64,000 nt of DNA from an uncultured Clostridia bacterium. GTDB lineage: Bacteria; Bacillota; Clostridia; Lachnospirales; CAMZNU01. The position numbers and the translations under genes are program-made. The notes beneath the pieces were generated by a model. The model did not search any database. It was not told where the DNA came from and saw nothing but the letters and a program-made list of their open reading frames with translations. How positions within the stretch are numbered: the first letter of the stretch is position 1; the number at the start of each line of letters is the position of its first letter. Shown here piece after piece: positions 56,032-58,402 of this stretch. The stretch is taken from positions 1 to 64,000 of the forward strand of contig CAMZNU010000001.1 in NCBI GenBank assembly GCA_947313885.1, read 5' to 3'.

Positions 56032-56595
56032 TTAACTTATTATTACTATTGACATTAAAATATTTATTACTTGTCTAAATATATTAGTCGTAATAAATAT
56101 TACTAACAACATTTGTAATATTTTTTCATAACTTGACATTTTCATAACTATATTTGGATTTCCATAAAGTCTAAATATTTTCTCGCAATGCAATGGATTG
56201 ATCGGTATTAAATTAAAAAAACCATTAGCAAAACTTATATACATAAACATATTTAAAAAATATATAACGTTGGCATTTAATGACGGTGCAAAAAGCAAGG
56301 TCATATTTGCAATGTATCCTAATGTAAAACTCAGTATTATCGGTACTGCACCTACTAATAAAATCCCTTTTTTTCTATCGTTGTACTTATATGAATTCGT
56401 TTCTATAACTGTACCCCAACCTACACTAAAAAATATCATTAATATTAATCCTATTGGCTCTATATGTTTTATCGGATTTAACGTTATGTATTTTTTTGAA
56501 CTTATATCTCCTATTTTGTAATTAACATACGCTTTAGCATTTCCTACAATAAATAAATATAAAATACTTGCTAAAATTATCTCTTTACTAAACAA
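56032..56595 (-). CDS. Catalytically dead site-2-protease-like (M50) membrane protein
   Basis: This 187-residue polytopic membrane protein aligns along its length with short bacterial site-2 proteases: AYVNYKIGD, ITLNPIKHIEPIGLILM, FFSVGWGTVIETN and FFNLIPINPL match the usual AYVAYKLGD, LTLNPLKHxDPxG, FGWxxPV and NLIPIPPLDG. The zinc site HExxH is replaced by VGNAK at residues 17-21, and the third ligand Asp by His136. It therefore should not cleave peptides and may bind or regulate membrane partners. It is the last gene of the rsmF-led operon, 11 bp after the nuclease gene. Confidence 0.8.
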   Translation of the reverse strand: MFSKEIILASILYLFIVGNAKAYVNYKIGDISSKKYITLNPIKHIEPIGLILMIFFSVGWGTVIETNSYKYNDRKKGILLVGAVPIILSFTLGYIANMTLLFAPSLNANVIYFLNMFMYISFANGFFNLIPINPLHCEKIFRLYGNPNIVMKMSSYEKILQMLLVIFITTNIFRQVINILMSIVIIS

Positions 56596-56606: not shown

Positions 56607-57164
56607 CTAAATATGTTTACAGACAGTTTTCCGACAAATGCAAAATTCACATTTTTTATAACTTGCATCTGCTACTCCCTTACCTGTAACTAACATTTTA
56701 TCCATACTTTTTATAGTATTTAAAACTTTTTTTCGTACTCGCCTTTTATTTTTTACCACAAACATATAATCCTTGTAAACTAATAATCCTTTTTTCGGTC
56801 TACTCCCAAAATTGTCCTCTATCAATAAAAAATATACTCCGATCTGCATTAAATCTTTTTCTTTTGGTTTTAGCTTATTTTTAATTTCACCACTTTTTAT
56901 TTCAATAGGTATATATCTATTAACAAAAACATTTTTTATTATGTAGTCTGGTTTTCCTTTCACTCTATATTTTTCTGATTTTAATAACTTACACATTATA
57001 ACTTCTTTACCGTGACCTTTTTCGTCTGCATAAAACAACTTATAAAATTGTTTTGTTATTTTCGGCTTTTTTTTCTTATATTCTCTTTTATCATAAAATA
57101 TAAGTATTAATAATATTATTATTACTGTTATTACTTTTATTAAATTTAAATCCATTTTTACCAA
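56607..57164 (-). CDS. Membrane-anchored Cas4/RecB-like nuclease, C-terminal half
   Basis: This protein of up to 185 residues (TTG 57164; ATG 57155 is equally possible, neither with a strong ribosome site) has one membrane helix (about 8-24), then a PD-(D/E)xK core. It has motif II GKPDYII (Asp73), motif III PIEIKSG (Glu88, Lys90), DLMQIGVY (Gln107, Tyr111), and a C-terminal cysteine group at 172, 175, 177 and 182. This is the Cas4 pattern without motif I and the first cysteine, which are encoded by the upstream overlapping gene. It may bind an iron-sulfur cluster jointly with that protein. No cas genes adjoin it. Confidence 0.78.
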   Translation of the reverse strand: MVKMDLNLIKVITVIIILLILIFYDKREYKKKKPKITKQFYKLFYADEKGHGKEVIMCKLLKSEKYRVKGKPDYIIKNVFVNRYIPIEIKSGEIKNKLKPKEKDLMQIGVYFLLIEDNFGSRPKKGLLVYKDYMFVVKNKRRVRKKVLNTIKSMDKMLVTGKGVADASYKKCEFCICRKTVCKHI

Positions 57165-57435
57165 TTACCATATATATCAACATAATTATAACTGCTATTA
57201 AAATTATTTTTATAAATTCACTCTTCTTGTGATTTTTGTAATAATTTTCATGAAACTTACGTCCTCTAGCATAATTATCATTAGTGCTTTTATACCCTTC
57301 TATATTAATATTCGTACTTAGCCTTCTTAATTCTTTTGTTGTATACGTCTTCTCATAATACCAACTATAATTACAATATGTATATTTGCTTAGTTCTGTT
57401 GCTGTATACATTCCTTTATTTGTCTTATTTGGCAT
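57091..57435 (-). CDS. Membrane-anchored Cas4/RecB-like nuclease, N-terminal half
   Basis: This 114-residue protein begins with YTATELSKYTYCNYSWYYEKTY (single Cys21), which resembles the N-terminal cluster-binding region of Cas4. RecB motif I ARGRKFHENYY (GxxxH, His62) follows, then one membrane helix (about 74-91) and a short Asn-rich tail. The catalytic motifs II and III are on the next gene, whose start it overlaps by 74 bp in another frame. Its own start overlaps the yhaM stop by 11 bp. Either two proteins assemble one nuclease, or the pair is a frameshifted single gene. Confidence 0.75.
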   Translation of the reverse strand: MPNKTNKGMYTATELSKYTYCNYSWYYEKTYTTKELRRLSTNINIEGYKSTNDNYARGRKFHENYYKNHKKSEFIKIILIAVIIMLIYMVIGKNGFKFNKSNNSNNNIINTYIL

Positions 57436-58402
57436 TTTTCCTACTTTCTACATACTTGGCATCATATTTTGACTTCCTCATATCTCTATTTAACGCTCTA
57501 TTATAACCTACCCACGTTGTTTGTTGCTTGTTATTACTAAAATGTTCTTCGAACATTTTAACTTTTGAATCTAACGTATCTGCTAAATGAAGTACATATG
57601 CCTCTAATGTACTCGGTAACTTAGGTGAACCGTATTCTAATTCCCCGTGGTGTCCTATAATACAATGTTTTAACATGCTTTTTAGCTCATGTGGAAACTC
57701 CGCAATATTCTCACTTTCTTTTGTTATTATTTCTACACCCATTATTATATGACCTAATAATTTACCGTCATCTGTGTAGTCGTTTTCGGGAAATGCTGAT
57801 AATTCATATATTTTTCCTACATCATGTAATAACGCACCCGCTATTAATATATTTTTATCTACGAACTTATAATGGCTACTTAAATACTCACATATATCGG
57901 CTATAGATACTGTGTGTTCTAACAACCCACCTGAATATCCGTGATGCATTACTTTTGCCGCCGAATGAGTTTTTATTTTCTTTGCTATGTTCTCATTTTT
58001 TATAAATATATTTTCTAATAACTCTTTTATATACTTATTTGTTATTCCATCTATATGTCGCAACAATGCACTATGTAAATTGTCTATGTTTTTTTCTGTA
58101 ACAGGTACATAATCATCTACGAAATATTCCCCTTCTCTACTTTTTCTTATTTTAGTAACTTTTAATTGATGGTCACCATTATACACAAGTACTGTTCCCT
58201 CGATTTTAATAAAATCATTAGCCTCAAAGTTTTGTATATTTTTATTTAAGTCCCATACTTTAGCATTTATAGTTCCTGTCTTATCTTGTAGCGTTAACGA
58301 ATAATACGTTTTTCCTGATTTTGCTTTTAAACTTTTTTTATCCTTACATAAGTAATGCTCTACTACTTTTTCATCTTCTACTAATTCTTCTATATATAAC
58401 AT
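57425..58402 (-). CDS. yhaM: 3'-5' exoribonuclease YhaM family (OB fold plus HD domain)
   Basis: This 325-residue protein has an N-terminal OB-fold (YSLTLQDKTGTINAKVWD near residue 33) and a C-terminal HD phosphohydrolase domain with EHTVSIADI near 161, LLHDVGKIYEL near 191 and GHHGELEYGSP near 249. YhaM degrades short RNA and single-stranded DNA from the 3' end with metal ions. It lies 3 bp after ygiQ and overlaps the nuclease half-gene, so it belongs to the same operon. Confidence 0.92.
   Translation of the reverse strand: MLYIEELVEDEKVVEHYLCKDKKSLKAKSGKTYYSLTLQDKTGTINAKVWDLNKNIQNFEANDFIKIEGTVLVYNGDHQLKVTKIRKSREGEYFVDDYVPVTEKNIDNLHSALLRHIDGITNKYIKELLENIFIKNENIAKKIKTHSAAKVMHHGYSGGLLEHTVSIADICEYLSSHYKFVDKNILIAGALLHDVGKIYELSAFPENDYTDDGKLLGHIIMGVEIITKESENIAEFPHELKSMLKHCIIGHHGELEYGSPKLPSTLEAYVLHLADTLDSKVKMFEEHFSNNKQQTTWVGYNRALNRDMRKSKYDAKYVESRKNAK

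Follow-up and report, generated by a model that had tools for sequence, protein, structure and literature searches.

Two neighbouring reading frames on the reverse strand of the window, as we call the whole stretch of 64,000 nucleotides that was analysed, encode the N-terminal (A) and the C-terminal (B) half of a nuclease resembling Cas4. This split architecture is strongly supported; the activity, the substrate and the biological role of the two proteins are inferred. We consider it likely that A and B together constitute an obligate two-subunit, membrane-anchored and CRISPR-independent Cas4-like nuclease, of which the pairing, the cluster, the activity, the substrate and the role rest on inference.

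In this view, A and B would be the products of two translationally coupled genes and the subunits of one PD-(D/E)XK nuclease of the Cas4/RecB type. A, with its N-terminus inside, and B, with its C-terminus inside, would come together on the cytoplasmic side of the membrane, and their two helices would form a packed hairpin. One active site would be completed across the subunits by H62 of A together with D70, E85 and K87 of B, and one 4Fe-4S cluster would be held by C21 of A together with C169, C172 and C179 of B. The enzyme would then act as a membrane-tethered, metal-dependent nuclease. By analogy with its Cas4 relatives, its substrate would most likely be single-stranded DNA. Its role may be one in defence or housekeeping that does not involve CRISPR adaptation. 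Of all parts of this proposal, the substrate and the role are the least secure. The explanation as a whole rests on comparison and on a model of the joined chain, without any experiment or any prediction of a two-chain complex.

The two reading frames and their layout in bacteria

The positions of the two reading frames, of their motifs and helices and of the upstream gene are collected in Table 1.

Table 1 Features of the A/B locus in the window. Residue numbers of A and B count from their ATGs.
Feature	Position	Strand	Remark
Upstream operon partner, YhaM-type HD plus OB exonuclease	57425..58402	-	PRK13480 YhaM, E 5e-56, below curated cut-off
ORF A, N-terminal half-nuclease, 114 aa	57091..57435	-	A family in 88/392 genomes of the order
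Cys21 of A, proposed first 4Fe-4S ligand	57373..57375	-	Kept in 83/83
Motif I of A, G58-R-K-F-H62 (GxxxH)	57250..57264	-	G and H kept in 83/83
Membrane helix of A, single	57163..57219	-	N-terminal side cytoplasmic by charge
ORF B, C-terminal half-nuclease, 185 aa from TTG	56607..57164	-	Found in 86/392 genomes
Membrane helix of B	57093..57146	-	C-terminal side cytoplasmic by charge
Motif II of B, GKPD (D70)	56946..56957	-	Kept in 83/83
Motif III of B, E85-I-K87	56895..56903	-	Kept in 83/83
QxxxY motif of B (Q104, Y108)	56832..56846	-	Kept in 83/83
C-terminal Cys group of B (C169, C172, C174, C179)	56619..56651	-	
A/B overlap	57091..57164	-	74 b from TTG; 65 b from ATG

A preliminary description of the locus, made from sequence alone, had proposed an ORF A of 114 residues with Cys21, a GxxxH motif and one membrane helix, and an ORF B with its own helix, the GKPD, EIK and QxxxY motifs and a terminal Cys group. 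Both proposals held and their coordinates proved exact. The overlap of 74 bp given in the same description held for the window if B starts at the TTG, and an alternative start, the ATG at 57155, would shorten B to 182 aa. B lies in the +1 frame relative to A, its helix is followed by a lysine-rich stretch, and its Cys group, which is terminal, reads CEFCICRKTVC.

Among 56 relatives, B was found in 15, all from one order, and a contig collection added two more bacterial loci and one archaeal locus with B. In all of these first relatives, B is preceded by an ORF of about 100 aa that contains YC..WYY and GxxFH and ends in a helix. A wider search covered 392 genomes from the order, 86 of which had B, and 391 genomes sampled from the class at large, where only 3 had B and two of these 3 were again members of the order. 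An independent search with a profile of A retrieved A from 88 of the same 392 genomes, including all 86 that bear B, so that no B was found without A. In the two genomes with A only (G441 and G647), A lies within 174 and 45 bases, respectively, of the end of a contig, which would cut off B. These comparisons show that the pairing of A and B is obligate and conserved.

The layout of the pair is variable in detail. Relative to A, B is in frame 2 in 39, in frame 1 in 38 and in frame 0 in 7 of 84 non-redundant bacterial loci, and the junction ranges from a gap of 206 bases to an overlap of 65 bases with a median overlap of 8, based on the nearest plausible start of B. Thus, on the question whether the two-gene layout and the overlap recur, the layout does and the length of the overlap is not conserved. 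In one genome (G600), A and B are even found on different contigs, A behind yhaM, and B in front of a gene for an RlmD-like protein and behind an unrelated region. In six of the loci with A and B in the same frame (L085, L086, L088, L096, L102 and L110), at most one codon lies between the open frames and the first start codon of B follows 9-18 bases later; read-through of the stop codon would yield a natural fusion there.

Overlapping ORFs with complementary motifs, when viewed alone, resemble a broken gene, and the locus could accordingly be a pseudogene or a sequencing error in which a single gene is broken by a lost base. This explanation is all but excluded, as the same split occurs in about 85 bacterial loci with the invariant residues in both halves. 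An uninterrupted protein in close relatives, which would have spoken against the split, was searched for and no long single ORF was found in any relative close to the window. The split is also seen in single-contig genomes (G037, G603 and L017, the last from Anaerotignum sp. MB30-C6); many of the surveyed genomes are MAGs. The sole unsplit case among the approximately 85 bacterial loci is L126 in genome G446, where a natural single chain of 277 aa has motifs I and II separated by two helices. It nests within the split bacterial clade of the tree described below, and we therefore regard it either as fused again or, the genome being incomplete, as the product of an assembly slip. Since dozens of Clostridia and many archaea share this layout, the split is real and old and not a sequencing error.

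According to another explanation, ribosomes would pass from A into B by programmed frameshifting or by reading through the stop codon, so that one protein is made. In its favour, B of the window overlaps A over a long stretch and is in the +1 frame, and in seven bacterial loci the two ORFs are in the same frame, most of them with no more than one codon between the open frames. Against it stand the above variation of frame offsets and junctions and the separation of A and B in G600. The same two observations contradict both alternatives named in the preliminary description, a programmed +1 shift and an old frameshift. Together with the archaeal junctions described below, they make frameshifting or read-through very unlikely.

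Conserved residues, membrane topology and fold

In the 83 non-redundant bacterial pairs, E14, C21, W25, Y26, G58 and H62 of A are invariant, as are G67-K68-P69-D70, E85, K87, Q104, Y108, C169, C172 and C179 of B; C174 of B is present in 77 of them. This degree of conservation goes far beyond chance. Hence, motifs I, II and III of PD-(D/E)XK nucleases and the QxxxY motif are all present in order, divided over two chains, in 83/83 pairs, and the four Cys typical of Cas4, one N-terminal (C21 of A) and three C-terminal (C169, C172 and C179 of B), are complete. In single-chain relatives, the Cys corresponding to Cys21 of A is found within the same YC..W motif. The comparison shows a strong constraint on every catalytic and cluster residue of the pair. 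It also supports the previous proposal that cluster and active site would form only if the two halves pair; the pairing, the cluster and the activity themselves are inferred.

A referee may object that A and B could be separate membrane proteins without a common active site, B being an inactive or regulatory relic of Cas4 and A its binding partner. This reading is compatible with the fact that no activity is known and that, by profile, most of the nuclease core lies on B alone. We consider it very unlikely, as the catalytic positions of both chains are invariant and single-chain relatives bear all of these positions on one polypeptide.

With regard to topology, the charge around the helix of A is on average +4.3 before and +0.7 after the helix, with a more positive N-terminal side in 78 of 83 A proteins. 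Around the helix of B, the bias is opposite, with means of 0.0 before and +4.5 after the helix in the bacterial pairs and a more positive C-terminal side in 79 of 83. From this opposite bias we infer, by the positive-inside rule, that both soluble domains should face the cytoplasm, in support of what had been proposed for the window. In a few loci, one of the two helices is missing: B lacks its helix and A retains it in family f19 (L012, L113, L122, L127, L128, L130 and L131), and A lacks its helix and B retains it in L102. Such losses would be expected of a complex that a single anchored subunit can keep in place, and suit two chains that are held together rather than one chain.

In searches against Cas4 profiles, A and B map to the N-terminal and the C-terminal part, respectively, of the same profiles. 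The matches of A alone, to positions 4-54 of 161 in one profile (E-value 0.0015) and to 6-63 of 196 in another (0.0039), are weak but at the correct place, and 12 of 18 A proteins match PDDEXK_1. B of the window matches TIGR00372 (cas4) with an E-value of 1.4e-16 and 60.9 bits, which is below the curated cut-off of 65. That B alone falls below this cut-off speaks against our explanation, and the joined chain of A and B does not exceed it either (58.9 bits). Archaeal relatives do exceed it, with 70.9 bits for B of L053, 87.2 for L147 and 69.7 for L080. The joined chain, an artificial read-through in which AACA in the overlap was read as one step and ten residues at the start of B were dropped, covers positions 4-158 of the 161 positions of the Cas4 profile. 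With regard to solved structures, the sequence profile of B matches 8d3l at 2e-6, and those of the fused forms match 4r5q, 8d3l and 4ic1. 8d3l, a type I-C Cas4, aligns with the fused forms in the catalytic core as well as in the part with the Cys and the GxxxH, its GxxxH falling on the region of the single-chain relatives that corresponds to motif I.

The joined chain of the window was also modelled with AlphaFold2, giving a pLDDT of 85.2 and a pTM of 0.77 on 47 aligned rows, compared to 91.1 and 0.83 for a natural archaeal single chain. In both models, N-terminal helices are followed by a long helix, a helix that returns and then the nuclease core, and the best solved structures found for them by Foldseek were the Cas4 structures 8d3l and 7mi5, Dna2 and MGME1; the joined model matches chain 8d3l_J with an E-value of 1.7e-6 and a TM-score of 0.55 on the target. 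The modelling of a fused chain, suggested as a check in the preliminary description, thus gave a confident model that matches Cas4 structures. Together with the profiles, it bears out the earlier assignment of A and B as halves of one Cas4/RecB-like nuclease, and unrelated folds of the two halves, which would have refuted it, were not found, since one fold takes its N-terminal part from A and its C-terminal part from B. A model of a joined single chain cannot, however, prove that A and B bind each other.

Archaeal relatives and single-chain forms

In archaea, the profile retrieved relatives from 113 of the 194 genomes of the phylum to which the Thermoplasmatales MAG L018 belongs. Some loci of these Thermoplasmatota are split exactly like the bacterial pair and others encode single chains, mostly with 2, 4 or 8 helices between motifs I and II; L077, L080, L082, L134, L139 and L147 are among these membrane-hairpin forms. 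An even number of helices is what the topology demands if both domains are cytoplasmic, and the few counts of 3 are likely due to a missed helix. Where a row was flagged as fused but had only 0 or 1 helix, the locus is a split one whose open B frame matched a simple pattern by chance.

In a tree for the B part, based on 84 rows with few columns and having many open forks, the fused archaeal forms group together with a support of 94. The bacterial forms constitute one clade (100), which is grouped with seven archaeal split forms (82). Only two changes between the split and the fused state are needed on this tree, which we read as one old split or fusion that has been inherited since, with L126 as the second event.

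The junctions of the archaeal pairs (L053-L074 and L141) point to the way in which B may be translated. In 18 of 35 pairs, the B codon overlapping the stop of A is ATA, located three bases behind GAGGTGAT or GGGGTGAT, which encodes the conserved C-terminal (E/G)VIL of A. At the position of the ATA, three other pairs have ATG and a further three TTG. We infer that ribosomes reinitiate at archaeal B downstream of an internal Shine-Dalgarno sequence, in many cases on AUA as the start codon. Archaeal B frames often have no ATG, GTG or TTG near the junction, which could be taken in favour of frameshifting or read-through. Against this, the codon behind the Shine-Dalgarno-like sequence is ATG, TTG or ATA and its position is fixed, which suits initiation and not slipping.

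Genomic context and known nucleases

At least 77 of the 84 bacterial loci have yhaM as the immediate upstream neighbour of A, and 67 have a gene for an RlmD-like rRNA methyltransferase downstream of the pair. Of the 38 archaeal split loci, many of which are short, 12 adjoin a gene for a VLRF1-like release factor and 9 adjoin ABCE1, the gene of a ribosome recycling factor. These RNA- and translation-related neighbours do not suggest DNA repair or defence and in this respect speak against our explanation. They rather raise the possibility that the pair, as a nuclease tethered to the membrane, serves RNA turnover or ribosome-linked quality control and does not act on DNA. Other membrane-anchored nucleases of Gram-positive bacteria, e.g. 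RNase Y, act on RNA. We consider this possibility unlikely, since the fold matches those of Cas4, Dna2 and MGME1, which are DNA nucleases, and since a neighbourhood alone is weak evidence. With homology pointing to single-stranded DNA and the neighbours to RNA, we rank DNA first and keep RNA as the main rival.

No cas genes adjoin the A/B pair in the window neighbourhood. The statement of the preliminary description that CRISPR and cas genes are absent is true for this neighbourhood only, as the genome of the window (G000) has two Cas1 genes on other contigs (C20 and C31). The presence of Cas1 is not associated with the pair (9/15 genomes with the pair versus 20/41 without, p 0.55). Since Cas1 is equally common with and without the pair, we conclude that A and B have a vertically kept, CRISPR-independent function. 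A role as partner in CRISPR adaptation was rejected for lack of a link to cas1 in the neighbourhood or at genome level, and so was an origin from phages or viruses, as one scan of viral contigs revealed no relative.

Of the known systems, the Cas4 family (TIGR00372, PF01930; structures 4r5q, 4ic1, 8d3l and 7mi5) gives the best fold and profile matches. It shares with A/B the PD-(D/E)XK core with GxxxH, D, ExK and QxxxY, and the arrangement of one N-terminal and three C-terminal Cys. In contrast to Cas4, motif I of the pair is carried by one polypeptide and motifs II-III by another, both of which normally bear a membrane helix, the pair is located outside a cas operon, and B of the window scores below the curated Cas4 cut-off. 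Thus, A/B does not meet the criterion of a single polypeptide, with two ORFs in all bacterial loci except one, nor that of adjacency to cas1/cas2 applied to CRISPR-associated Cas4. It does meet the criterion for solo-Cas4, a location outside CRISPR-cas loci. Solo-Cas4 and MGE-Cas4 were described by Hudaiberdiev et al. 2017 (PMC5704561), where solo-Cas4, like A/B, is a Cas4 relative outside CRISPR-cas loci with apparently vertical inheritance but, unlike A/B, consists of single genes. A term search in the text of that paper revealed no split and no membrane form, the word "membrane" occurring once, in the name of an unrelated gene. The nuclease domains of Dna2, MGME1 and AddB have the same fold as A/B but are single chains, helicase-fused or stand-alone, without membrane anchor. 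An Fe-S cluster is present in Dna2 and AddB as well. The single chains of Thermoplasmatota have the same order of motifs as A/B, with helices occupying the site at which the pair of the window is divided, but are one chain and constitute a clade apart from the split forms.

The open-access literature searched, outside of which most subscription journals lie, contained no split, membrane, membrane-anchored or transmembrane Cas4, and to our knowledge no Cas4 relatives other than soluble single-chain nucleases are known. On balance, we lean slightly towards a bolder reading, taken as a whole, in which the pair represents an undescribed class of nucleases. In this class, two separately encoded membrane proteins would jointly build an active site and an Fe-S cluster; it would be common to an order of Clostridia and to Thermoplasmatota and act outside CRISPR. 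In half of the archaeal pairs examined, translation of its second subunit would begin at an AUA codon immediately after a strong Shine-Dalgarno sequence located within the gene of the first. With a conserved division falling exactly between motifs I and II and both halves normally bound to the membrane, the nuclease would be active only on the encounter of two membrane proteins, and would constitute a natural switch located where foreign DNA comes in, at the membrane. The single-chain relatives render the idea of two subunits directly testable. The locus is also a likely annotation trap: as B scores as Cas4 and A fits no curated family well, the pair can pass for an orphan or broken cas4.

Some further observations concern the surroundings of the pair. 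In the window, a gene for an M50-like small membrane protein is located directly downstream of B (56032-56595, reverse strand); it adjoins the pair only in the window among the 84 loci and was thus ruled out as part of the system. In the archaeal loci L018, L054, L057, L063 and L072, an eRF1/VLRF1-like release factor gene and ABCE1 are found next to the split pair. The window genome contains two CRISPR-Cas loci, on contigs C31 (locus L175) and C20 (locus L174), and no Cas4 gene was found in either of them within the stretch read. As typed by eye, one of these loci carries a stretch resembling the C-terminus of Cas9 upstream of Cas1 and Cas2, and the other one, which is type VI-like, carries Cas1, Cas2, a repeat-like sequence and a large HEPN-like protein.
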